Below are positions 1 to 41,422 of a stretch of 64,000 bases of DNA, piece after piece. The position numbers and the translations under genes are program-made. The DNA lies in NCBI GenBank assembly GCA_023382675.1, contig JAHDWN010000005.1:117407-181406 (forward strand). Direction: 5' to 3'. The notes below the pieces were generated by a model, which did not search any database, had not been told where the DNA came from, and worked only from the letters and a program-made list of their open reading frames with translations. This DNA comes from Anaerolineae bacterium (GTDB lineage Bacteria; Chloroflexota; Anaerolineae; Aggregatilineales; Phototrophicaceae). Each line of letters starts with the position of its first letter. Positions within the stretch are counted from its first letter, which is position 1.

Positions 1-867
1 TCGACGCCGGTCATCGATGGCGTCCTCGGCGTCTGGGATACGACGCTTGCCACCGACGGCGTTTACGAGCTGTGGCTGACGGCCAACGTCAGCGGCGGCG
101 AGGCCGTGCGCCATCGTGTCGGCCCGCTGCGCATCGAGAACAACCCGCCGCCGTTCGCCGTCCTGCCAACTCCGCCCGTGATCGCGCCCGTGGTGACGCA
201 GGAACCCGTCGCGCCGAGCGGCCCCACGGCGACCGTCGCCGTCGCCAGCGCCAACGTCCGCACGGGCGATTCGACCGACTACCCGGTGATCACCGCCCTG
301 CCACTCGACACTGTGCTGCCCGTGATCGGCATCAGCAACCGTGGCACCCGCTGGTATCAGGTGCGACTGCCGGACGGGCGCGCCGGCTGGGCTGCGCCGA
401 GCGTTGTCCGCATCAGCGGCGATACGAGCGGGCTGCCCCTCGTCCAGCCGCCGCCGATCCCGGCGACACGCACGCCAACACCGGTGCCGACACCCGCCAC
501 CAGCGCGGATCTGGTCGCGGGCATCGTTGTGCTCGACCCGGCCACCCCGACCTGCCAGCAGACGTTCACGGTCGGCTTCGACGTCGCCAACCTGGGCAGC
601 GCGCCGACGACCGTCTCCGGCGTCGTCTCACTGGTCGATTCGCGCGCGGCGGATGGCAGTCCGCAGGGCACGACCATCGGCGGTTTCCCGATCTTGCAGC
701 CTGGGCAGACGTTCCGCGTCAACATGCCGCTGACGATCTCGACCTGGTACAACGAAGTCCACCGGATCACGCTGACGATTGATGCCGGCTTCTCGATCCC
801 GGATCGCGACCGTTCAAACAACACGCGCACCGTCGAATACACGCTGCAAAAAGGTGGCTGCCCGTAG
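1..867 (+). CDS. SH3-domain and CARDB-like exported protein, C-terminal part
   Basis: The reading frame is open from the first base, so the start lies outside the window. The opening residues (GVLGVWDTTLATDGVYELWL) resemble the short beta-rich tails found after penicillin-binding or other surface proteins. A bacterial SH3-like module follows at about nt 226-420 (NVRTGDS...WYQVRLPDGRAGW), then a Pro/Thr-rich linker, then a CARDB-like beta-sandwich at about nt 510-850, ending in Cys-Pro. These modules normally bind cell-wall or surface glycans or mediate adhesion outside the cell. Whether an enzyme domain lies upstream cannot be seen. A bidirectional hairpin follows 20 nt after the stop. Confidence 0.75.
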   Translation, partial: STPVIDGVLGVWDTTLATDGVYELWLTANVSGGEAVRHRVGPLRIENNPPPFAVLPTPPVIAPVVTQEPVAPSGPTATVAVASANVRTGDSTDYPVITALPLDTVLPVIGISNRGTRWYQVRLPDGRAGWAAPSVVRISGDTSGLPLVQPPPIPATRTPTPVPTPATSADLVAGIVVLDPATPTCQQTFTVGFDVANLGSAPTTVSGVVSLVDSRAADGSPQGTTIGGFPILQPGQTFRVNMPLTISTWYNEVHRITLTIDAGFSIPDRDRSNNTRTVEYTLQKGGCP

Positions 868-19955: not shown

Positions 19956-21902
19956 ATGCCTGAAACGACCCAGTTTGGCGGTGAAGCGCCATCCAGCGGC
20001 TCGAACGACGTAACACTCAAGCCGAATTCGATTTTGCAGAACCGTTACAAAATCACAGGCGTACTGGGCGGCGGTGGCATGGGCACTGTCTATCAGGCGC
20101 GCGATTTGAATTTCCCGGATGTTCGCAAACTCGTCGCCATCAAAGAGATGCAAAATCTGAGCAACGATCCATCCGTGCGCCAGACGGCACTGCGCAACTT
20201 CCGGCGCGAGGCCAACATCCTGGCAACGCTCAGTCACCCGGCGACACCCAAGATTTTTGATTTCTTCGACATCAGCGACCGCGCTTACCTGGTGATGGAA
20301 TACATCAACGGCGGCGATCTCGAAGTCATCCTGAGCAAGACGAAAGAACTGCCCACCGACCGTATCCTCCAGTGGGCGATTGAACTCTGCGACGTGCTCG
20401 CTTACCTGCACCGCGCCGAACCAGAGCCGATCATCTTCCGCGACATGAAGCCGCCGAACGTCATGATCGACAACCTGGGTAAAGTGCGCTTGATCGACTT
20501 CGGCATCGCCAAAGCCTTCACCAGCGGCGTCAAGCATACCATGATCGGCACGGAGGGTTATTCCGCGCCAGAACAGTACAAAGGCGATGTCACCCCATTG
20601 AGTGACATTTACAGCCTGGGCGCGACGCTGCATCACGTGCTCACGCGCAAAGACCCCCGGTTGGAACCGCCCTTCAGCTTCCACGAGCGCCCGATCAGCG
20701 CTTTCAACCCGAAAGTGCCCGAAGGCTTCATCGCCGTTATCGAGAAAGCACTGGCCTTCAAGCCGGAAGATCGCTACCAGTCGTGCGACGAGATGAAGCA
20801 GGCACTCGAAGCGCTGCGCTACCAGCCACAGGCGGCCATGTACGTTGCGCCCACCGCGCCCGCCGTCGGCGATAACGGCGCAGCCGTCGTCACGACCACC
20901 CCGTTTGAGCAGGGCGGCCAGGCTGGCGGCATTCAGCCCAAATGGATGTTCAAGACTGAGGACGAAATCCGAACCAGCCCGACCGTCTGGAAAGACCTGG
21001 TCTTCATCGGCTCCTACGACACGAATATGTGGGCGCTCAAGGCGGCAGACGGCGAGCTGGTGTGGAAATTCCCCACCAATGCCGGGATTGCGTCGTCCCC
21101 CGTCATCGACGAGAGCAATCGTGCCATCATCTTCGGCTCGGAAGACTACCGTCTGTACGCGCTGGACGCACGCACAGGCCGTGTCAACTGGACATTCAAT
21201 TCGCAGGACCGCATCCGCAGCACGCCGCGCGTTGCGCATAATCACGTCTTCTTCGGCAGCGATGACGGCAAAGTCTACGCCCTCAACGCCAGCAATGGCC
21301 GAAAAATCTGGGAATTCGAGGCGGGCGCACCCGTGCGCTGCCGACCAGCCGTCACCAACGAGTTCATCATCGTCGGCTGCGAGTCTGGCGAAATCTTCGG
21401 CCTGAGCTTGTCCGGCCAGCGCAAATGGAGCAATCGCACGCGCAAATCGGTCATCTCCGCGCCCTACGTCGATCACGAAGAAGGTATCTGTTTCGTCGGT
21501 TCCAACGACAACTACCTGTACGCAATTGATTCCAATAACGGATACACGGGCTGGCGCTTCCGCACGAGCGGCCCGGTCATCTCATCGCCGACGATGCAAG
21601 GCAGCCTCGTCTATGTCGGCTCTGCCGACGGCAATCTCTATGCTATCAACGCCCAGAATGGCAAGGAGCGTTGGAAGTTCAAAACGGAGAAACCGATTGT
21701 CGGCTCACCCACCGTTCACGGTGGCGTGGTCATCTTTGGCGGCTCGGATAACGTCCTCTACTGTCTTGATGCCGAGAATGGCAAGGAACGGTGGCAGTTC
21801 ATGACCGGCGGCGCGATCACGTCCACACCGCTTATCCACGAAGGGGCGATCTATTTTGGTTCCTTCGATCATGTGCTTTACGCCTTGCCGCTTGTAATCT
21901 GA
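19956..21902 (+). CDS. Ser/Thr protein kinase fused to a PQQ-type beta-propeller
   Basis: Residues about 30-290 form a protein kinase: glycine loop GVLGGGGMGTVYQARD, Lys63 in AIKEM, catalytic loop IIFRDMKPPNVMI, LIDFGIAK, and GTEGYSAPEQYKGD. The catalytic HRD is FRD here. Residues about 325-648 are at least seven repeats of the PQQ/pyrrolo-quinoline propeller type (YALDARTGRVNWTFNS, YALNASNGRKIWEFEAG, YAINAQNGKERWKFKTE, YCLDAENGKERWQFMTG). No transmembrane helix separates them, so the propeller is probably cytoplasmic, as a ligand or protein sensor. A PP2C gene follows after 45 nt, making a reversible phosphorylation pair. Confidence 0.9.
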   Translation: MPETTQFGGEAPSSGSNDVTLKPNSILQNRYKITGVLGGGGMGTVYQARDLNFPDVRKLVAIKEMQNLSNDPSVRQTALRNFRREANILATLSHPATPKIFDFFDISDRAYLVMEYINGGDLEVILSKTKELPTDRILQWAIELCDVLAYLHRAEPEPIIFRDMKPPNVMIDNLGKVRLIDFGIAKAFTSGVKHTMIGTEGYSAPEQYKGDVTPLSDIYSLGATLHHVLTRKDPRLEPPFSFHERPISAFNPKVPEGFIAVIEKALAFKPEDRYQSCDEMKQALEALRYQPQAAMYVAPTAPAVGDNGAAVVTTTPFEQGGQAGGIQPKWMFKTEDEIRTSPTVWKDLVFIGSYDTNMWALKAADGELVWKFPTNAGIASSPVIDESNRAIIFGSEDYRLYALDARTGRVNWTFNSQDRIRSTPRVAHNHVFFGSDDGKVYALNASNGRKIWEFEAGAPVRCRPAVTNEFIIVGCESGEIFGLSLSGQRKWSNRTRKSVISAPYVDHEEGICFVGSNDNYLYAIDSNNGYTGWRFRTSGPVISSPTMQGSLVYVGSADGNLYAINAQNGKERWKFKTEKPIVGSPTVHGGVVIFGGSDNVLYCLDAENGKERWQFMTGGAITSTPLIHEGAIYFGSFDHVLYALPLVI

Positions 21903-21947
21903 TGTACCATCAAACTGGCACGTCTTCCAGCCGTGGAGCTTGCGCTT

Positions 21948-22883
21948 ATGAATGTTTTGCGACGCTTGTTTAATTCGACTGCAGCCGATACCCTGCCACC
22001 GACGCAGCCAGCGCCCACGCCTACGGCGCTGAACGATGATATGGAGGATGCGTTGGCGGCGCTGAACGGCTCGACGCGCCCCTTCCCGCCGGACGATGCA
22101 ATTCCGGCGATGCAAATGCGGCATCTGACGTTCGGGCAGGCGAGCGATGTCGGCATGGTGCGCAAAAACAACCAGGATGCGGTGCTCTCATTCTTCTCCA
22201 CAAGCGAAAGCGTGGATGAGCGGCCTGGCTTTGGCATCTTCATCGTCGCTGACGGCATGGGCGGCCATCATGATGGCGAAGTCGCCGCTGCTGTCGCCGC
22301 ACGCACCGTGATGAACGAATTGATCCGCAGCCTGTACCTGCCGCTGCTGAACACCGAAGATCCTGATCGCCCGCCGATTACGGAAGCGGTCGAAACTGCC
22401 ATCATGCAAGCGAACCAGGCCGTCGTGCGCAATGTGCCGGAAGGCGGCACGACCATGACCACAGTCGTTATCCAGGGCGACCTGGCGTGCATCGGCCACG
22501 TAGGTGATAGCCGCGCCTATCTCATTCACGATAAGAAGGCGGAGCAGTTGACGCGCGATCATTCCTATGTGCAGCGGCTCGCCGAACTGGGACAGATCGA
22601 CGCCAACGACGTGTCCAGTCACACGATCAAGAATGTTTTGTACCGTGCGCTCGGCCAGACTGAGTATCTCGAAGTCGATACGCTCACGCGCCGCTTGCCC
22701 GCCCACTCGTATGTTCTCATCTGTAGCGACGGTCTCTGGGGGCAGATCAAAGAGTACGAGGTCACGAGCGCGGTGCTGAGCAATCCCAATCCCCAGGCGG
22801 CGTGTCATGAACTGATCGCCAGGGCCAACAATGCCGGCGGCGTTGATAATGTCAGTGCAATCGTGATCCAGATACCAGGCTAA
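21948..22883 (+). CDS. PP2C-family Ser/Thr phosphatase
   Basis: The ATG at 21948 is preferred over an in-frame GTG at 21933; GGAG lies about 8 nt upstream. After a Pro/Thr-rich N-terminal segment of 65 residues, the PP2C motifs follow in order: SDVGMVRKNNQDAV, FIVADGMGGHHDGEVAA with the metal-binding Asp-Gly, GGTTMTTVVI, HVGDSRAYLI, LTRDHSYVQRL, CSDGLWG and GVDNVSAIVI. It would dephosphorylate targets of the adjacent kinase. The gene order kinase, phosphatase, DnaJ-VWA, FHA on one strand with short gaps indicates one operon. Confidence 0.93.
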   Translation: MNVLRRLFNSTAADTLPPTQPAPTPTALNDDMEDALAALNGSTRPFPPDDAIPAMQMRHLTFGQASDVGMVRKNNQDAVLSFFSTSESVDERPGFGIFIVADGMGGHHDGEVAAAVAARTVMNELIRSLYLPLLNTEDPDRPPITEAVETAIMQANQAVVRNVPEGGTTMTTVVIQGDLACIGHVGDSRAYLIHDKKAEQLTRDHSYVQRLAELGQIDANDVSSHTIKNVLYRALGQTEYLEVDTLTRRLPAHSYVLICSDGLWGQIKEYEVTSAVLSNPNPQAACHELIARANNAGGVDNVSAIVIQIPG

Positions 22884-22907
22884 GCTTACGCATAAGGGAA
22901 GCGCACC

Positions 22908-24398
22908 ATGGCTTTCGATGGTTTTGATCCCTTCAGCGTTCTTGGGATCGCACAAACAGCCACACTGGATGATGTCAAAGCCGCCTTCCGTCGGGTAGCG
23001 CGGCGGCTGCATCCTGATGTCAATCGTCATCCTGGAGCCGGGGCGCAGTTTCAGTACATCAACAACGCCTATGAAGTGCTGAGCGATCCGGCACAGCGCA
23101 GCGCTTACGAGAAAGCCCGCACGGATGATGACCCGGAACATCCTTACTTCACCATGCGCGTGACCCCCAGCCGCCGCCGCATCCAACCGCTGGACGAGCC
23201 GCAGGTCATTTACCTGCTGGCAGACATCTTCCCTGACCCGCGCGCGACCCAGGACAGCACCGAGCGGGAAACGCGGCTCAACCTGTGCCTGGCGCTGGAT
23301 CGCAGCAATTCAATGAACGGCGCGCGGCTCAACGAAGTCAAGATCGCGGCGCATCAGATCATCGATCTGTTGAATGCAGACGATATCTTCTCGATTGTCG
23401 CCTTCAGCGACCGTGCTGAAGTCATCATCCCAGCCACGCACGTCACCGATAAGCCCGCCATGAAAGCCCGCGTCAGCATGATGACGGCCAGTGGCGGCAC
23501 GGAAATCTTCCAGGGCTTGAACGCCGCCGTCGAGCAAACACGGCGCTTCCTGGCTCCGCGCCTTGTCAACCACATCCTGCTGCTCACCGACGGTCACACC
23601 TTTGGCGACCAGATGCAAACGCTGGAACTGGCGCGCACCGCCGCCAAAGAAGGCATTCTCGTCAGCGCTATGGGGTTGGGCCAGGAGTGGAATAACAAAT
23701 TTCTGGACGAGATCGCGTCCCTCACCGGCGGCAGCAGCGCCTACATCAATTCGTCGGGAGCGGTGGTGCGGTTTCTGAATACGCATGTACGCAACCTGTC
23801 GAACGTCTTCGCGGATCGCCTTCAGCTCTCCATCGCGCCCGACCCGGATGTCAAATTAGAATCGGTCTTCAAGCTTCAGCCCAACCCGCAGCCGCTGCCC
23901 ATCGGGCAGGGCTTCATCCCGCTCGGCAGCTTGCAGCGCAACCGGCCAACATCGGTTTTGATGCAGTTCGAGTTCCCTGCCGGGTTGACGCGCGAATTTC
24001 GCTCCATCGCCCGCATCGTAACGGTCGGCGACATTCTGGCCGAACGCATCCACAACTTCCACGCGATGAGCGACATCTCGGTTGAAGTTTCCGCCGACGC
24101 CACGGTCGAAAACCCGCCCACGGCCATCCTCGACGCGCTCGGCAAACTGACGCTCTATCGAATGCAAGAGCGCGCCAACGAAGCGCTGGAAAATGGGGAC
24201 ATTCGCCAGGCCACCCGTCACCTGGAAAATCTCGCAGCGCGCCTCTCGGCCATGGGTGAGGTCGAACTGGCCCAGCAGGCGCGGGCAGAAGCGCAGCAAG
24301 TTGCGCATACCTCCGCCCTGACCGAGAAAGGGCGCAAGGTATTGAAATACCAGACCCGACATCTCCTGCTGGGTGAAACGACTGGAGAAACCACCTGA
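22908..24398 (+). CDS. DnaJ-domain and von Willebrand A-domain fusion protein
   Basis: Residues 1-70 form a J-domain with the Hsp70-activating HPD (RRLHPDVNRHPG) and NNAYEVLSDPAQRSAYEKA. Residues about 120-300 form a VWA domain with a MIDAS motif (ALDRSNSMNGARL), the conserved Thr in SGGTEIFQGL and the Asp in LLLTDGHTFG. The C-terminal 150 residues have a beta region, then a helical part (ANEALENGDIRQATRHLENL). The J-domain implies an Hsp70 partner; dnaK lies 5 kb downstream in the window. The stop TGA shares its last base with the next ATG, so it is coupled to the FHA gene. Confidence 0.88.
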   Translation: MAFDGFDPFSVLGIAQTATLDDVKAAFRRVARRLHPDVNRHPGAGAQFQYINNAYEVLSDPAQRSAYEKARTDDDPEHPYFTMRVTPSRRRIQPLDEPQVIYLLADIFPDPRATQDSTERETRLNLCLALDRSNSMNGARLNEVKIAAHQIIDLLNADDIFSIVAFSDRAEVIIPATHVTDKPAMKARVSMMTASGGTEIFQGLNAAVEQTRRFLAPRLVNHILLLTDGHTFGDQMQTLELARTAAKEGILVSAMGLGQEWNNKFLDEIASLTGGSSAYINSSGAVVRFLNTHVRNLSNVFADRLQLSIAPDPDVKLESVFKLQPNPQPLPIGQGFIPLGSLQRNRPTSVLMQFEFPAGLTREFRSIARIVTVGDILAERIHNFHAMSDISVEVSADATVENPPTAILDALGKLTLYRMQERANEALENGDIRQATRHLENLAARLSAMGEVELAQQARAEAQQVAHTSALTEKGRKVLKYQTRHLLLGETTGETT

Positions 24399-24919
24399 TG
24401 AAGACTTGTCCGTATTGTGGTTATCGAAATCGTCCTGGCTCGCTTTTTTGCGAAGACTGCGCCCAGCCGCTCCACGAAGACGCCAGACTGATGACACTGC
24501 AAACCCGACAGATCGAAGATGACGAAATCGATCTACTGAGTCAGTCAACCTGGGGGACCGCTAGCTTCGAGCAACATGCCATTGTCATCATCCATGTGCG
24601 TGATGCGTCCGAACCCCTGCATCTGCGCCCCACTGCCGACCAGCTTACGATTGGTCGCGCCGACGTGAGCAATCCGATCCGCCCTGATCTCGATCTGACT
24701 CCGTATGGTGCAATGGAGAACGGCGTTTCGCGCCTGCACGCCGCCATCGCGCGCAACGATAATACGCTCACGCTGGTCGATCTGGGCAGTTCCAACGGCA
24801 CATTCCTGAACGGGCAGCGACTGACGGAACAAACGCCGCGCGTGCTGCGTGACGGTGATGAGATTCGCTTCGGGCGTCTGGTGACGCACATCTACTTCCA
24901 GGATGAAAATGGCTTTTAG
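24398..24919 (+). CDS. zinc-ribbon and FHA-domain protein
   Basis: The N-terminus is a CPYCGY...CEDC zinc ribbon. Residues about 80-170 are an FHA domain with LTIGRAD, GVSRLHAAIARN, LVDLGSSNGTFLNGQRL and the closing RDGDEIRFGRL. FHA domains bind phosphothreonine, so this is the likely reader of the upstream kinase. It overlaps the DnaJ-VWA gene by one base. The protein is 173 residues with no membrane segment. Confidence 0.92.
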   Translation: MKTCPYCGYRNRPGSLFCEDCAQPLHEDARLMTLQTRQIEDDEIDLLSQSTWGTASFEQHAIVIIHVRDASEPLHLRPTADQLTIGRADVSNPIRPDLDLTPYGAMENGVSRLHAAIARNDNTLTLVDLGSSNGTFLNGQRLTEQTPRVLRDGDEIRFGRLVTHIYFQDENGF

Positions 24920-24965
24920 CCCGCTCGCACAGCCCATCTTATCTGCCTCAATGGAGTTCTGACTC

Positions 24966-25211
24966 ATGATCACGCTGTTACTGCACATCAGTGCCGCAGA
25001 ACCGGTCAAAGTCGATGTCGAAGATCTGCCCGACGTGCGCGATCAGATTATTATCGGCAGGAATCCCCGGGATAAGGCTGACCGCGAACTGAACTGGATC
25101 GAAGAAGGTGTCTCCACCCTGATCTTCCCCTGGTGGCGCATCACCTTCGTCGAAGTGCTGCCATCCGAGGAAGAAGGCGAGGCCTTCCCGCTGCCCTTCC
25201 GCAACGATTAG
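24966..25211 (+). CDS. small conserved protein of the kinase operon
   Basis: This 81-residue acidic protein (MITLLLHISAAEPVKVDVED... IIIGRNPRDKADRE) is not a known family to me. GGAG lies about 9 nt before the ATG. It follows the FHA gene by 46 nt on the same strand and is probably co-transcribed. The phrase IIIGRNPR resembles the first strand of an FHA domain, but the rest of that domain is absent. The end is rich in Trp, Pro and Glu. Confidence 0.6.
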   Translation: MITLLLHISAAEPVKVDVEDLPDVRDQIIIGRNPRDKADRELNWIEEGVSTLIFPWWRITFVEVLPSEEEGEAFPLPFRND

Positions 25212-34252: not shown

Positions 34253-35056
34253 CTATTCGACTGCCTGATGCGCCTCGTCCTCCGCCAGCATCCGCTCGAT
34301 CTCTGCTGTCTCCAGATCATCGACGTACTGCGTGATCGCCGTTTCCAGGTAGGCAGGCAGATCGACGTGCAGCTTCTGGAAATTGGCGATGAAATCCGGG
34401 TGCGAGTTGTAGCCGTGCCCCAGGCCGCGCAGGATATCCAGCGTCGGCTCGTAGAAATAGCGCATATGCTCGTGCCAGCGCTGGAGAATCGCTTGAACTT
34501 CGGCGCTGGTCGGTGGCCGCCCTGCCTCAATCGCATCGACCATGTCGATATAGATCTGACTGCCTTCGCCCATGATGATGTCGCGTTGAGTCTGCGTGTA
34601 GCTGTTCCAGCGCTTGATCGAGTCGTTGACGATCTCCGGGCCGTATTGCAGGCGCACCTCGCGCTCGTACTCTTTCTGCTTCTCGTCGCTGAAGGCTTCA
34701 AACAGCCGCTTCTTGCTCATTTCGACCTCTCCTGCAAGGTGCATAATCGTGCTATCAACCGTGCTGACAAGCTTCTGCAAGCGGCCGATCTTCGCCGCCA
34801 ACACCTTCCGGTGGGAGCGCAGCGCCGCCAGCAGATCGAAATCCGGGCTGTCGAGAATATCTTTGATGCGCAACAGCTCAAGCCCGATCTCGCGATAAAA
34901 CAGGATCTGCTGCAAGCGCAGCAGCGCCGCGTCGTCGTAGTAGCGATAGCCGTTCGCGCCGACCTCGGCCGGCTTGAGCAGCCCGATCTCGTCGTAGTAA
35001 TGCAGCGTGCGGATGCTGACCCCGGCCAGTTCCGAGAGCTGCTTGACGGTGTACAT
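34253..35056 (-). CDS. MerR-family regulator with TipAS-type effector domain
   Basis: The ATG at 35056 has GGAGG upstream and opens the canonical MerR helix-turn-helix (YTVKQLSELAGVSIRTLHYY, DEIGLLKPAEVGANGYRYYD). A dimerisation helix follows (residues about 75-110), then a C-terminal TipAS-like helical domain (WNSYTQTQRDIIMGEGSQIY, RWHEHMRYFYEPTLDILRGLG). TipAS domains bind thiopeptides and other hydrophobic drugs and then activate transcription by DNA distortion. The gene has a MerR-type promoter of its own (35082-35112) and diverges from the sheath-TIR gene. Confidence 0.9.
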   Translation of the reverse strand: MYTVKQLSELAGVSIRTLHYYDEIGLLKPAEVGANGYRYYDDAALLRLQQILFYREIGLELLRIKDILDSPDFDLLAALRSHRKVLAAKIGRLQKLVSTVDSTIMHLAGEVEMSKKRLFEAFSDEKQKEYEREVRLQYGPEIVNDSIKRWNSYTQTQRDIIMGEGSQIYIDMVDAIEAGRPPTSAEVQAILQRWHEHMRYFYEPTLDILRGLGHGYNSHPDFIANFQKLHVDLPAYLETAITQYVDDLETAEIERMLAEDEAHQAVE

Positions 35057-35081: not shown

Positions 35082-35112
35082 ATCATAAAGGATGACGTTA
35101 CGTGAGAGTCAA
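35082..35112 (-). promoter_or_regulatory. MerR-type promoter with 19-bp spacer and operator dyad
   Basis: Reading the minus strand: TTGACT (35112-35107), a 19-bp spacer, then TATGAT (35087-35082). Spacers of 19-20 bp are the hallmark of MerR-controlled promoters. A dyad GACTCTCACGTAACGTC is centred in the spacer. Transcription would enter the merR gene itself, so autoregulation is likely. Confidence 0.75.
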
Positions 35113-35268
35113 GTACATAGCGACAACGGCGTCACGTTCAAGCTGGCGTAGAGGACACAAGCGCTATCTCGTTACCGGTTAGGCGCTTCGGCCGCATTCG
35201 ACGCCAGAGTCAAACTGCATTACACTGGTCGGCATGCATTTGCGCCGTGTCACCCGCGGAGTCGCCCC

Positions 35269-36978
35269 ATGCCCAGCTATTTGACCCCCGGTATCTATAT
35301 CGAAGAAATCGTGGAGACCGACATACGCCCGGCTAACGCCTGGCGCGGCGACTGCACGACATTGACCGCAGACGCTGCCGACAAGATCAGCATAGTCCAT
35401 CTGGGCACTGCCGCATTCATCGGCATCACGGCGCGCGCCGGCGATTCTGACGAACTGCTGCGCAAACCGACCCAGGTGAAAAGCTGGGACGAATTCGTCG
35501 AACTGTATGGGGAGAACACCGGCCCTGGCTATCTGCCCGCAGCCGTCCACGGTTTCTTCGCCAACGGTGGGCCAGCCTGCATCATCGTCAGCGTGGGCGT
35601 GGTCGTTGCCGACAAGGGCCGTGCCCGACTCCCCGATATACGCGCGCAGGACTTCATGGATGTCATGTATGAGCGCGTCGGGTTGGGGGCGATCCGCCCC
35701 GGTCATGAGCCGGGACTCCTGTGCATCCCGGACATCATGGCGCTGTTCCAGCAGGGCGCCTTCAAGCCTGTGGATGTGCAGGCCATCCAGCAGTCGATGA
35801 TCACCTACTGCGAGTACCATGGCAACTGTATCGCAATCCTTGATCCCATGCCGGTGCTGACACCCCAGGAGGTGCTTAATTGGCGGATGCACGTCAATCA
35901 CGACACCAGCCGTGCGGCGCTCTATTATCCCTGGCTGATAAGCGCAGCGAGCGACGGCCGCGCTTCACGCGCAGTCCCGCCCTGTGGGCATATCGCCGGC
36001 GTGATGATGCGGGCGCAGATCGAGCATGGCGTGCAAAAAACCCCGGCCAACGAAATCCTGCGCGATGTGGAAGATCTGGAATTGCACGTCACGCGCGATG
36101 AACAGGCGCTTCTGAACCCCCTGGGCATCAACCTGCTGCAAGCGACACCCGAAGGCGAAGTCCGCATCTGGGGCGCGCGCACGCTGTCATCCGATTCCGC
36201 CTATCGCCTGATCAAGACGCGGCGGGTGATGATGACCGCGCAGCGCAGCATCGAGCGCGCCGTCAGTTGGGCGATCTTCGCGAGCCTCGACCGCCAGGCG
36301 CGCGAACGCATCTGCTGCACCATCCAGCATCTCTGTCGCTTGCTGTGGCAATCGGGGGCGCTGACCGGAGCGAACGCAGACGATGCCTACTATCTCCTCG
36401 AACATCTCGACCCGGAGACGCCATCCCTCTATGTCGTCGATACCGGGCTGGCGCTCGACGCGCCCGGCACCTTCAGACGCTTCCGGGTCGTCTTCTTCAC
36501 CGACGATGTCATCCCCGACCTGGCCGAGCCGACACGCGCCGCGCCCGATAACTCCCGCGATCTGGTCGATGAGCAGCCACCGCCGGACATCTTCGTCTCC
36601 TACAGCCGCAGGGATTGGGATGAGTTTGTCGAGCCGCTGGTCGCGAGCCTGCGTGAGAACGGCCTGTCCGTCTGGGTCGATCAACATCTGCTGCAAGGTG
36701 GCCAGGATTGGATGGATGAAATCAACCACGCGCTCAAAATGTGCCGGTTGATGATCCTGTGCGTATCGCCAGACGCGCTGCAATCACGCTACGTCAAGCT
36801 GGAGTACCGCCAGTTCTTCAACACCAACAAGCCGATCCTGCCCGTCATCTGCCATCCGGCGGAGCTGCCAGCAGAACTGGGGGGTATTCAATACCTGCCC
36901 TACGACGAGCCTGACACGCTGATCGTGCGAGCGCGGCAGCTTCTGTCGGTGGATGACGATCAGGCCCGCCCGATCTGA
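35269..36978 (+). CDS. contractile tail-sheath protein fused to a TIR domain
   Basis: Residues 1-415 are a full phage/injection-system tail-sheath protein. It opens with YLTPGIYIEEI. The conserved C-terminal sheath core has PPCGHIAGVMMRAQIEHGVQ, KTPANEIL, GINLLQ, VRIWGARTLSSDSAYRLI, RSIERAVSWAIFASLD and LLWQSGALTGANADDAYY. After an acidic/Pro linker, residues 439-548 are a TIR domain: DIFVSYSRRDWDEFVEPLVA, LSVWVDQHLLQGGQDWMDEI, LMILCVSPDALQSRYVKLEY. Glu484 in WMDEI is the candidate NADase glutamate. No tube, baseplate or ATPase gene is near. The domain calls are strong; the function (assembly-activated NAD cleavage or signalling) is inference. Confidence 0.92.
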   Translation: MPSYLTPGIYIEEIVETDIRPANAWRGDCTTLTADAADKISIVHLGTAAFIGITARAGDSDELLRKPTQVKSWDEFVELYGENTGPGYLPAAVHGFFANGGPACIIVSVGVVVADKGRARLPDIRAQDFMDVMYERVGLGAIRPGHEPGLLCIPDIMALFQQGAFKPVDVQAIQQSMITYCEYHGNCIAILDPMPVLTPQEVLNWRMHVNHDTSRAALYYPWLISAASDGRASRAVPPCGHIAGVMMRAQIEHGVQKTPANEILRDVEDLELHVTRDEQALLNPLGINLLQATPEGEVRIWGARTLSSDSAYRLIKTRRVMMTAQRSIERAVSWAIFASLDRQARERICCTIQHLCRLLWQSGALTGANADDAYYLLEHLDPETPSLYVVDTGLALDAPGTFRRFRVVFFTDDVIPDLAEPTRAAPDNSRDLVDEQPPPDIFVSYSRRDWDEFVEPLVASLRENGLSVWVDQHLLQGGQDWMDEINHALKMCRLMILCVSPDALQSRYVKLEYRQFFNTNKPILPVICHPAELPAELGGIQYLPYDEPDTLIVRARQLLSVDDDQARPI

Positions 36979-37060: not shown

Positions 37061-37492
37061 ATGGGCTTTCCATCGTTTCGAGCTGTACCTCCTCGCGGGC
37101 CGGTCACGCGCGGCGCGGATGCCGAGGCACAGGCAGACTCCGGCACGCTGGCGCAGAGCACGGCGCAAAACCTGCTCGCGCAAATCCCTGGCGAAGCGAG
37201 CGGCTTCTATTTGCTGGCCGCCGACAACATCCAGAACCCCGGCACAGGCACGCTCGCGTTCATCTTCGTGCTGGCGCTGATTCTGCTGATCGTCGTGCGC
37301 GTGGTCGGCAAGGCGAGCCGGATGGTGATCTTGACCTCGGTCGGGGCGTTCGTCATCTGGATGTTCGTGCTCGATCATGGCCTGTTTCATGTGCTCGCGC
37401 CCAACCTGCTGCCCGATCCGCTCGGCCTGATCGTCGCACTGTTTTACACGACGCTGATCACCGCGCTCGCCAACGCCGGGATCATCAAGTAG
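37061..37492 (+). CDS. small membrane protein downstream of the sheath-TIR gene
   Basis: The ATG at 37061 is chosen because AGGAG (37048-37052) is then 8 nt away; the ATG at 37055 is too close. The 143-residue protein has a polar N-terminus of about 60 residues with the phrase LLAQIPGEASGFYLLAADNI, then about three membrane helices (FIFVLALILLIVVRVV, MVILTSVGAFVIWMFVL, LGLIVALFYTTLITALA). No family is recognised. It starts 82 nt after the sheath-TIR stop and is followed by a terminator, so the two form a unit. It may anchor or be targeted by the sheath-TIR protein; that is conjecture. Confidence 0.75.
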   Translation: MGFPSFRAVPPRGPVTRGADAEAQADSGTLAQSTAQNLLAQIPGEASGFYLLAADNIQNPGTGTLAFIFVLALILLIVVRVVGKASRMVILTSVGAFVIWMFVLDHGLFHVLAPNLLPDPLGLIVALFYTTLITALANAGIIK

Positions 37493-38413: not shown

Positions 38414-41400
38414 CTAGCCACGCCGGAGCGGCAGCGCCAGGCAGCGGGGGCCACCCATGCCGCGCACCAGCTCCGAGCCTTCGATTTCGAGCACCTCAAT
38501 GCCGAGCGCGCGCATCGCCCGATTGGTGTGCAGGTTGCGGTCGTAGCTGATCACCCGGCCCGGCGCGATGGCGAAGACGTTGGTGCCATCCGCGCCCTGC
38601 TCACGCGCGGCGTAGCGGGCATCGTTGTTGCCCGTGTTGACGACCGTCAGCGGCGCGGCGAATTCGTCGCTCAGCAGCGTGTAGAAGCGCCGGTTCTCGC
38701 GGATCGGCAGCGCGACCAGTTCGCCATCGCGCGTCAGCGTCGGCTCGTAGCGCTTGATGATCTCGATCTGATCCATCACGTCGGGATAGACGACGATCAC
38801 CCCGTGCGCGATCACGGTGAAGACCGTATCCAGGTGCATGTACTGGCGGGCGCTCGGGATATGCACCTCGTAGACGCGCTGGACTTTGCCCGCCTGGAAC
38901 AGCTTGCGCGCCAGCATCCCGACCGTCTCCGAGCGCGTGCGCTGGCTGCAGCCGATCACAACAGTCTCGTCGTTGAGCACGAGGATGTCGCCGCCTTCGA
39001 TAGTGAACGGCCTGCCCTCGTCCGCCTGCGCGCCGTAGACGATCTCGACCCCGGCGAACAACGGATGCCACTGCACGACCGCCTGCAAGATCAGCGTTTC
39101 GCGCACGCGGGCGTCGAACTGCGCCTTGCAAGCGATGTAGCCATCGCCGATGACCGCGCCGGGGTCGCGCGTGAAGTAGGCGTTCGGCACCGGGTCGGCC
39201 AGGAAGGCGGGCGCGTCCTCGCCCATGCCCTCGAACAGCAGCGCCCGCAGCGCGTCCGGCGCGTAGTCGTTCAGCAGGCGCGCGCTCAGCTCCGGCGCGC
39301 CGCCCGCCCGGCACAGCCACTCGACAGCGGCGGAGCGGGTCCGTTCATCGCGCAATATGTCATCCACCAGCTGGTCAAGATAGAGCGCCTCAATGCCCTG
39401 GTCGCGCAGAAGCTGGCAGAAAGCGTCGTGCTCAAGCTGCATCTTGCGCAGGAACGGGATGTCTTCGAACAGCAGCCGCCCCTTGTTGCCCAGATCAAGC
39501 AGATCGATCTCGCTGCCGGGGCGATGCACCAGCACCGTCTGCAGCTGGCTGCACTCGGACGCGACTTGTAAGTGGATCGGCTCCGGCGCGTCAGGAGCAG
39601 CGGGCACTTGAGCCACGTCACGGGCAGCGATGCGCGCCAGGAACGTCTCGTGTTCCTCGCCCGCGCCGGAGGCTGTGCCCGCGAACGCGCCCAGGATCGT
39701 GTGATAGACGAACTCCGGCACGACGCGGAACGAGTACGGCATATGCACACGTTCAAACAGGCCGTGCGCGTCCTTGCCGAACGGCCCGATGTTGACCACC
39801 GGGCAGTCGAGCGCCGCCATCTGGTCGAAGGCCAGGCTGTAGCCATGGTCGAACAGCGGCATGTTGTCGATCAGCGCGGGCAGGTGATCGCGCACGGTCG
39901 GGTCGAGGCGGACGTAGCTGATGTCGGCGATGTACGGGTAAAAGCCGCGCAAATGGATCTGGCCGTGCGGGTTCACGTCGGAATCGTCAATCAGCGCCGC
40001 AATCGCGTCGACAAGCGGGTGCGCCTGCGGCTGGATGTGCGGGTAGAACGGCGGCGCGAAGAAGACGATCACCGCCGGGCCGGTTAGCTCAGCCTCCCGC
40101 GCCAGCCGCGCCACGATCTGCTGGCTGATCTCGCGCGCGTCGCCTTTGTGCGTCGCCGCCGGGATCGCCAGCGTCTCCGTGCCGCTGACCGAGCGCACCA
40201 GCGCATCCAGCCACTCGGCGAAAGCGACCTCGCCCTTCGCGCCGAACCAGCCGCGCTTCTGCCGCACCCGACGGCACAGATCGGCATAGCTGAGCACCAG
40301 CGGCGCGTACTGCTTGGGCTGTGGCTCGTGGCCACGGAAGGCTGCAAACTGAGCGTCGCGCGCCTCTAATACGCTCAAGAGCGCGGCGGTGGCCTCGGCC
40401 TCCATCGTCGCCAGCGCCTGTGCCGGCGAGATGCTGTAGGTCAGCCAGTTGATGTAGACGAAGGCCTCGGCGGAGGTCTGCACGTTGTAGCTCGGCTTGA
40501 GGTCGCGCAGCTTGAGCGTCACCGGCGGCACAGCGACTTCGAGCGGCGCCACGCCGTCCGGCGACCAGCTATCGCTCAGGCGTGTGTTCAGGTTGAGCCG
40601 CCGCACCAGCTCCGCCGCGATCTGGTTGGCGTCGACGCCGCGAAACGGCTCGCCGACGTGCGTTGGATCGCCCAGGATGTAGAACGACGGCAGCAGCTTG
40701 CCGACGACGCCGGTGTAAATGTAGCGCTCATGGTCGTCACTGCCGCGCGGCGCGGTGTAATCGGTGTTGATGACGCCGATGTAATCGAGATCGTGCGCCG
40801 CCTGGAGTTCGATCAGATACGGCAGCGCGCCGAGGATGCCCGCCGACTCGTTCTCCTCGTCTGGGCAGGCCAGCAGCAGCAGATTGCCGCCGAGTTCGTC
40901 GGAATGCTCGGCGAAATAGCGCAGGAGCGCGATGTTGATCGACAGGCCGCTCTTCATATCGACCGAGCCGCGCCCGAACATCCAGACCGGTTCGCGCTCT
41001 GCGCCCGGTCGCTGCCAGGTCTGTTCGAGATCGCGCTTGACCTCCAGCGATGCGCCCTGTGGCAGCCCGCCTTCGAGCGCCGCCCGCAGCCGCGCCGGAT
41101 CACGCGCAATCGCCCCGCCCTGCTCCGGGTCGAGCGCCTGGAACTCGTCGATGCCAACCGTGTCGTAATGCGCCATCAGGATGATCGTCTGCCGTGTCGG
41201 TGCTGGGCTGCGCAGCAGGCAGGCGACGTTGTGCCGCCCGTCGGCGACCGGCCACAGCTCCGGCGCGAGGCTGTCCGCCTGCCCTTCCGCCAGCAGCTCG
41301 GTGATCAGGCGGGCGCAGGCATTCTCACCCTCGACATCCGGGCTAATGGTCGAAACGGACATCAGGCGCTCGGTCATAGCTTTGACAGTGGTGAACCAGC

Positions 41401-41422
41401 GATCAGGTTGGAAGGCGTTCAA
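38414..41422 (-). CDS. RocB-like M20 peptidase fused to arginine deiminase
   Basis: The TTG at 41422 is chosen: GAGGAG lies 8 nt upstream, and the RocB homology starts there (NAFQPDRWFTTVKAMTERL). An ATG at 41485 is possible. Residues 1-610 are RocB/M20 type, with metal ligands in ILMAHYDTVG, FGRGSVDMKSGLS and CPDEENESAG. Residues 615-1002 are a complete arginine deiminase: FTRDP (Asp753), IEGGDILVL (Glu809), YMHLDTVFT (His863) and Cys994 in GMGGPRCLALPL. The deiminase would make citrulline and ammonia from arginine; the M20 half could release arginine or hydrolyse a derivative. Fusion of the two is unusual. No arcB or arcC is near. Confidence 0.92.
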   Translation of the reverse strand: MNAFQPDRWFTTVKAMTERLMSVSTISPDVEGENACARLITELLAEGQADSLAPELWPVADGRHNVACLLRSPAPTRQTIILMAHYDTVGIDEFQALDPEQGGAIARDPARLRAALEGGLPQGASLEVKRDLEQTWQRPGAEREPVWMFGRGSVDMKSGLSINIALLRYFAEHSDELGGNLLLLACPDEENESAGILGALPYLIELQAAHDLDYIGVINTDYTAPRGSDDHERYIYTGVVGKLLPSFYILGDPTHVGEPFRGVDANQIAAELVRRLNLNTRLSDSWSPDGVAPLEVAVPPVTLKLRDLKPSYNVQTSAEAFVYINWLTYSISPAQALATMEAEATAALLSVLEARDAQFAAFRGHEPQPKQYAPLVLSYADLCRRVRQKRGWFGAKGEVAFAEWLDALVRSVSGTETLAIPAATHKGDAREISQQIVARLAREAELTGPAVIVFFAPPFYPHIQPQAHPLVDAIAALIDDSDVNPHGQIHLRGFYPYIADISYVRLDPTVRDHLPALIDNMPLFDHGYSLAFDQMAALDCPVVNIGPFGKDAHGLFERVHMPYSFRVVPEFVYHTILGAFAGTASGAGEEHETFLARIAARDVAQVPAAPDAPEPIHLQVASECSQLQTVLVHRPGSEIDLLDLGNKGRLLFEDIPFLRKMQLEHDAFCQLLRDQGIEALYLDQLVDDILRDERTRSAAVEWLCRAGGAPELSARLLNDYAPDALRALLFEGMGEDAPAFLADPVPNAYFTRDPGAVIGDGYIACKAQFDARVRETLILQAVVQWHPLFAGVEIVYGAQADEGRPFTIEGGDILVLNDETVVIGCSQRTRSETVGMLARKLFQAGKVQRVYEVHIPSARQYMHLDTVFTVIAHGVIVVYPDVMDQIEIIKRYEPTLTRDGELVALPIRENRRFYTLLSDEFAAPLTVVNTGNNDARYAAREQGADGTNVFAIAPGRVISYDRNLHTNRAMRALGIEVLEIEGSELVRGMGGPRCLALPLRRG

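Follow-up and report, generated by a model that had tools for sequence, protein, structure and literature searches.

A conserved gene joining a tail sheath to a TIR domain outside any injection-system cluster in an Anaerolineae bacterium

TIR domains often destroy NAD, killing the cell or alarming it, and clustering often serves to switch TIR enzymes. In most bacterial TIRs, the glutamate responsible for NADase activity is reported to lie in a WxxxE motif on the C helix (E208 in AbTIR); the W204A substitution cost AbTIR its NADase activity, and TcpC needed no Trp (PMC11374754). Switching by assembly is described for the related case of bacterial STING filaments (PMC12421889), and EAT15, an eCIS-associated toxin, brings a TIR domain into an injection-system context (PMC11297309). 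In contractile sheaths, the C-terminal region is reported to carry the strands that link neighbouring subunits and the helix that grips the tube (PMC10329688, PMC8894135), and phage sheath proteins can assemble into polysheaths in the absence of further viral proteins (PMC6357053). In the engineered RaK2 041 phage sheath, 200 C-terminal residues were removed and GFP, mCherry or the enzyme YqfB was joined to the C-terminal end, and the products formed active nanotubes with the cargo probably inside (PMC8618960). The contractile injection system (CIS) of Streptomyces coelicolor, a cytoplasmic system of lineage IId that also occurs in Roseiflexus and other Chloroflexota, mediates regulated cell death (PMC12237407, PMC10020575), the route from particle to death being still in the course of elucidation.

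The gene described here, from the Anaerolineae, a class of Chloroflexota, brings the two families together in one protein. Within the window (the whole stretch of 64,000 nucleotides that was analysed), a single, intact, uninterrupted open reading frame passes from a tail sheath into a TIR domain (Table 1), as the preliminary description had proposed: Phage_sheath_1 (residues 169-306, 8.4e-17) and TIR_2 (residues 441-546, 2.7e-23) both match above their curated Pfam cut-offs, and the sheath motifs named in that description are all present in the translation. Phage_sheath_1C (residues 307-370) falls under its cut-off, at 20.9 versus 26.9 bits, and a 'tail sheath' PHROG spans residues 47-369 (7e-35). 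The coding signal is normal, and GC and GC3 lie near those of the neighbouring genes, giving the fusion a native look.

Table 1. Features of the sheath-TIR locus; positions are counted from the first nucleotide of the window.
Feature	Position	Strand	Codons or length	Basis
Sheath-TIR fusion gene	35269..36978	+	569 aa	Pfam and PHROG matches; full-length orthologue in a second species (whole gene, dN 0.14, dS 0.67)
19-residue insert	35317..35373	+	codons 17-35	Sheath alignment; between N-arm motif PGIYIEE and core
Conserved sheath core	35404..36219	+	codons 46-317	Pfam and PHROG; confident AlphaFold2 model; VIA match to 9gtp_1f; dN/dS 0.25 (bootstrap 5-95%, 0.18-0.35)
Remodelled C-terminal sheath domain	36220..36513	+	codons 318-415	Invariant positions; pLDDT; dN/dS 0.34 (bootstrap 5-95%, 0.20-0.58)
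TIR domain (TIR_2)	36586..36912	+	codons 440-548	Pfam; AbTIR alignment; dN/dS 0.07 (bootstrap 5-95%, 0.03-0.12)
WxxxE-type motif Y-V-K-L-E with candidate catalytic Glu512	36790..36804	+	codons 508-512	AbTIR alignment
Membrane protein, possible partner	37061..37492	+	143 aa	82 bp downstream of the fusion; about three hydrophobic segments by hydropathy
MerR-TipAS regulator, divergent, probably outside the unit	34253..35056	-		Pfam

The same fusion is present at full length in a second species of the genus (G052, 95% complete; the source genome, G000, is 96% complete), with 77% identity across query residues 1-560. Gene order is common to both species, with dnaK, a Lipoprotein_15 repeat protein and a MerR-TipAS regulator on one side of the fusion, and a 143-residue membrane protein, Transgly_assoc proteins and an M20/ADI-type protein following on the other. 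The sheath core, the C-terminal sheath domain and the TIR domain are all under purifying selection in the two species, with the tightest constraint on the TIR (Table 1). A frameshift or an assembly join between the halves, which the preliminary description had named as the outcome that would undo it, is very unlikely, because a second species has a full-length orthologue in a MAG of its own and both halves are under purifying selection.

Close relatives of the fusion are few. The full-length gene occurs in two of 15 genomes of the genus and in 2/154 genomes of the order (E 1e-55), where at most nine candidate places were scored per genome, and in 1/396 genomes of the class (1e-50) and 1/400 of the phylum (1e-65), each time the source genome itself, with at most three places scored per genome, so that remote fusions could be missed. 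The orthologue of the second species would have matched at the class and phylum levels and is absent among the matches, meaning that its genome was not drawn into those samples. A scan of genome contigs for close relatives returned one fusion locus. Among viral contigs, the matches at seven loci fall inside residues 1-444 with no TIR match at 0.01, and among phage (29) and plasmid (124) records none covers 80% of the fusion protein. Likewise, 11 sheath-cluster loci yielded no TIR match at 0.01, and four distinct long sheaths (L131, L140, which equals L147, L145 and L146; 574-649 aa) end in a canonical C-terminal arm and are not fusions. Judged by titles and abstract openings, no paper among those listed in literature searches takes a sheath-TIR fusion as its topic; the term TIR is absent from a sheath survey (PMC9230969) and a CIS metagenome survey (PMC12210884), and in PMC7824862 and PMC11144348 sheath and TIR terms stand in unrelated places. 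Neither half is new in itself; their pairing as a stand-alone gene did not turn up in print in these searches, and we regard the product as a TIR signalling protein to which a novel kind of module is attached.

The fusion lies outside any injection-system cluster, as the preliminary description had stated. It is the only sheath on its contig, and no CIS genes were found near it: neither tube, baseplate nor gp25 genes stand beside it, and the locus has no eCIS operon in or near which it could be a cargo gene. In the source genome, the tube matches are on contigs C8 and C10 and the gp25 match is on C8, which holds one separate tail- or eCIS-like cluster with its own sheath, about 27-30% identical to the sheath half of the fusion. 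That cluster (L048:7592-19722) contains sheath, tube, spike, gp25 and baseplate J genes. Across the genus, Phage_sheath_1 matches in ten of the 15 genomes and gp25 in nine, and the second species is the only one to have a sheath without a gp25 match, the fusion being its only sheath. Its orthologue also sits outside any CIS operon, so homologues are not always found within injection-system operons, as the preliminary description had allowed they might be, and reading the neighbours in both species led us to reject the idea of a regular sheath paralogue in an operon. The fusion can therefore exist without an injection system. Two unfused relatives of the sheath half whose surroundings were inspected are differently placed: one (L059, genome G039) stands in a cluster with two tube matches and gp25, and the other (L058, genome G008) shows the same gene order by eye.

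Both fusion-bearing species also carry an isolated gene for a protein of about 150 residues, on contig C10 of the source genome (L129:7654-8109) and contig C41 of the second species (L130:7925-8377), in the same gene order. In the source genome, Phage_T4_gp19 matches its last two thirds (2.1e-10). In the second species, where the gene is far from the fusion, the tube-family match (6.7e-8) exceeds the Pfam cut-off, at 34.5 versus 28.2 bits, and a tube partner for the fusion is for this reason conceivable. Weak tube-family matches of the same sort occur in 11 of the 15 genus genomes, including two (G046 and G061) that have no sheath match.

The sheath half appears to descend from the cytoplasmic CIS sheaths of Streptomyces and Chloroflexota, a line of descent that we infer in its details. 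CIS sheaths of the phylum are about 40% identical to it over roughly residues 105-408, and phage sheaths are 25-33% identical among the matches listed (20 of the 29 records). By sequence, the best solved relatives are the sheath chains of the S. coelicolor CIS, 8bl4 (1.1e-69) and 8bky (2.8e-69), and the closest solved structures are 9gtp, 9gts, 8bl4 and 8bky. AlphaFold2 models the core with confidence, and the model (range 46..326) superimposes on the S. coelicolor sheath 9gtp_1f over 268 residues (VIA Z 36.5, rmsd 2.3 A), so that, as modelled, the core fold is intact. In an alignment of 68 sequences, 182 columns carry one residue in at least 90% of 34 canonical sheaths of the lineage, and the fusion keeps 97 of these, as compared with 114-132 in four main sheaths from outside those 34 and 90 and 101 in two 'second' sheaths. 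It retains 16/22 in residues 46-110, 17/21 in residues 161-235 and 31/46 in residues 236-310, and 4/13 in residues 111-160. In the sheath tree, the stem branch of the fusion pair measures 2.25 changes per site, and the pair adjoins the 'second' sheaths of two other clusters (L056 and L066) with support of 87/92, a placement that carries a long-branch warning.

Both ends of the sheath have been altered. The N-arm motif is retained and is followed by the insert, which is absent from the 13 other sheaths among the 15 of 68 aligned sequences listed. The strongest remodelling is at codons 318-415, which, judging from the alignment, would be equivalent to the tube-contact helix and the handshake strands: of the 47 invariant positions from residue 336 onward, the fusion has only 14 and its orthologue 16, as against 31, 34, 39 and 40 for the four main sheaths and 23 for each of the two 'second' sheaths, so that the C-terminal tube-contact and handshake region is unconserved in the fusion. 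The PAEF of the C-terminal arm, which 59 of 68 other sheath ORFs share, reads DAPGTF in the fusion; a looser P-x-E-F/Y/Q is present in 66 of the 68, and the two misses look disrupted or cut short. Residues 318-434 of the AlphaFold2 model are mostly below pLDDT 60, and the equivalent region of a canonical sheath (413-514), modelled in an identical way from that set of 31 sheaths, gave block means of 74-92, a control that is suggestive rather than strict because the fusion's alignment holds just one close relative; the N-arms have low pLDDT in both. A further difference is the absence of the outer domain of relatives of 520-555 residues (the open frames of the unfused relatives at about 40% identity, from the genus and family, are mostly 523-555 residues long), although some relatives from the class, of 425-455 residues, lack it as well. 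Of the 'complete contractile sheath' that had been proposed, the core thus stands; the C-terminal domain is strongly remodelled, the N-arm carries an insert and the outer domain is absent. Because the C-terminal part is altered yet constrained, it looks re-purposed and not decayed.

The TIR half is predicted with block means of pLDDT of 78-97 over residues 441-560 and matches AbTIR (8g83) at 4e-07. In that alignment the WxxxE motif of AbTIR falls on Y508-V-K-L-E512, with Tyr in place of Trp, and Glu occupies position 512 in 26 of 28 TIRs aligned from the loci retrieved, a set that contains both fusions. Glu512 is therefore the likely catalytic residue on the strength of the alignment, and Asp471 is also kept. 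The candidate originally put forward, Glu484, is rejected: it is Glu in only half of the aligned TIRs (14/28) and Lys in three close relatives, and it is not the residue that aligns with the WxxxE Glu of AbTIR. Among defence TIR models, the TIR half matches ThsB, SAVED-TIR and others at 2.9e-14 and weaker, and its match to ThcB4 (2.4e-8) is far under the cut-off. The source genome is rich in TIRs, with 54 further TIR places (56 matches minus the fusion and the C8 sheath), many of them in open frames of 300-1600 residues.

Compared with the lineage IId sheath, with which it shares the core fold at about 40% identity, the fusion has no CIS operon and no outer domain, and has gained the N-arm insert, a remodelled handshake and the TIR domain. 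Its TIR belongs to the same subfamily as those of TIR-WD40, REC-GAF-TIR and FHA-TIR proteins of related bacteria; the nearest are accompanied in their proteins by WD40 repeats (70% identity) or by a response regulator and GAF (46-56%), and the FHA-TIR of the source genome is more distant (37% over the TIR) and has lost the Glu at the 512 position. The module joined to TIR in these proteins is a phospho-sensing, ligand-sensing or repeat domain, whereas in the fusion it is a tail sheath; the sheath thus stands where the nearest TIRs carry an input module. With AbTIR and ThsB of Thoeris, the fusion has in common the TIR fold and the WxxxE Glu (the ThsB models match weakly), but it differs from them in having Tyr for Trp, and no ThsA-type effector partner was matched by Pfam or PADLOC among the neighbours scanned, a subset of the genes in the window. 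Like the RaK2 041 constructs, it combines an altered sheath end with a joined enzyme; however, those nanotubes are man-made and the fusion is a natural gene, whose assembly is putative. Its TIR is covalently part of a sheath with no eCIS at the locus, unlike EAT15, which is an eCIS-associated toxin.

The reading that we favour, tentatively and at a little short of even confidence, is that an orphaned or domesticated sheath of the cytoplasmic CIS type has been recruited into a TIR enzyme as its module for assembly or sensing, the enzyme being switched by assembly. It is favoured because the sheath half has a fold for ordered assembly, no customary partners accompany it, and there are precedents both for sheath self-assembly and for enzyme-bearing tubes; moreover, since the joined gene has been kept in a second species without the rest of the machine, the old sheath may now be the trigger or scaffold of the TIR. 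We infer that the sheath part would serve both for input and for oligomerisation: lacking a tube, it would self-assemble into a polysheath-like form or a shorter oligomer upon a rise in concentration or a cue that exposes the arms, and assembly would set the TIR domains side by side, leading to cleavage of NAD+ via Glu512. The outcome would be NAD+ loss or a cyclic-ADPR-type signal by which the producing cell is stopped or killed, perhaps with the 143-residue membrane protein acting together with the fusion. Assembly-driven switching of an NADase is plausible by analogy with the systems cited above. It is possible, though we hold it as the more doubtful claim, that the gene encodes an enzyme nanotube of natural origin or an immune switch built on a sheath, in which assembly of the tube-less sheath, with itself or on a phage tail, activates the attached TIR NADase, a part of a contractile tail having thus turned into the trigger of a cell-death enzyme. 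Against canonical sheath polymerisation stands the fact that the subunit-weaving strands are among the most altered parts, but C-terminal remodelling need not stop assembly, since the phage sheath shortened by 200 residues is reported still to form tubes (PMC8618960). The replacement of the Trp of WxxxE by Tyr speaks against NADase activity, and the presence of the fusion in just two genomes of the order, the same two species on which the link to the membrane protein rests, also counts against the favoured explanation.

An unlikely alternative is that the fusion senses phage tails: its sheath half would mimic, or co-assemble with, the sheath, tube or baseplate of an infecting contractile-tailed phage or of an injection system deployed by a rival; contact, rather than self-assembly, would activate the TIR and bring about abortive infection. 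A phage structural protein as trigger has a precedent in Thoeris, whose TIR proteins are reported to be activated by phage major capsid proteins (PMC12578639), and both the faster evolution of the sheath half relative to the TIR (dN/dS 0.25-0.34 versus 0.07) and the matches of the TIR to defence models are in keeping with such a role. The adjacent MerR protein also matches the PADLOC mad1 model (8.2e-15), but over residues 2-49, its DNA-binding part, which we read as general MerR similarity, and ten other neighbours have no PADLOC match at 1e-4. The nearest sheaths, moreover, are those of CISs of the phylum and not of phages, and the C-terminal strands that would weave into a foreign sheath are unconserved. 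Rather improbable, too, is a TIR that serves as a non-enzymatic adaptor, recruiting other TIR-domain proteins to a scaffold formed by the sheath as polymer or oligomer; the many further TIRs of the genome and the replaced Trp would suit this role. Against it, the fusion retains Glu512 as well as Asp471, and no other region of the protein is as constrained as its TIR; the Glu at 512 can be lost, since an FHA-TIR and one more of the 28 aligned TIRs lack it.

The remaining explanations fare less well. That the fusion is an accessory sheath, adding TIR domains to the particle of a CIS or tube encoded elsewhere, is very unlikely: the C8 cluster of the source genome could supply partners, the lone tube-family gene is present in both species in the same order, and the tree, with its long branches, sets the fusion beside 'second' sheaths that adjoin a main sheath; however, the second species has the fusion without another sheath or a gp25 match, lone tube-like matches also occur in genomes without sheath matches, the tube-contact and handshake region is unconserved, and the C8 sheath shares no more than about 27-30% identity. 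A decaying relic, in which a TIR gene captured a sheath gene and the product, without function, is drifting, is scarcely credible. Its very narrow distribution (2/154) and the long stem branch are what such a relic would have, but the open reading frame, the synteny and dN/dS values of 0.07-0.34 by region have been kept in two species, and coding signal, GC and GC3 are those of an ordinary gene of this neighbourhood.

In this gene, a CIS sheath and a death-type enzyme are joined in one protein, which has been kept in a genome that yielded no injection machine. The cytoplasmic CIS of this lineage is tied to regulated cell death in Streptomyces; a TIR that is activated by assembly would represent a minimal link from sheath to death and a natural version of the engineered sheath-enzyme tubes; if it is a phage tail that activates the TIR, the fusion would be a new kind of sensor, acting as a mimic of a viral structure.

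Of the neighbouring genes, the 143-residue membrane protein is a possible partner. It is found in 2/154 genomes of the order (E 0.001), the same two that carry the fusion, and no family was matched in Pfam (0.01), PADLOC (0.01), NCBIfam (0.1) or PHROGs (1); as both genomes share the whole neighbourhood, the association is a lead and not proof. The MerR-TipAS regulator is present in ten of the 15 genus genomes (E 1e-30) and, in the five further members for which flanking genes were examined, out of eight others with a match, it stands among different genes. A conserved promoter- or operator-like element, TTGACTCTNACGNNACGTCA, precedes merR at 7/7 loci (positions 35093-35113 of the window and six other loci), and its placement appears to point at merR itself. 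A role as dedicated regulator of the fusion is therefore unsupported, and with other neighbours elsewhere and a promoter-like element of its own, MerR-TipAS is probably not part of the unit. Elsewhere in the window, positions 19956-25211 hold kinase-beta-propeller, PP2C phosphatase, DnaJ-VWA and FHA genes in what looks like a phospho-signalling cluster, and positions 38414-41422 encode a protein of 1002 residues, with an M20-type peptidase part and an arginine-deiminase part, that is conserved in the second species.
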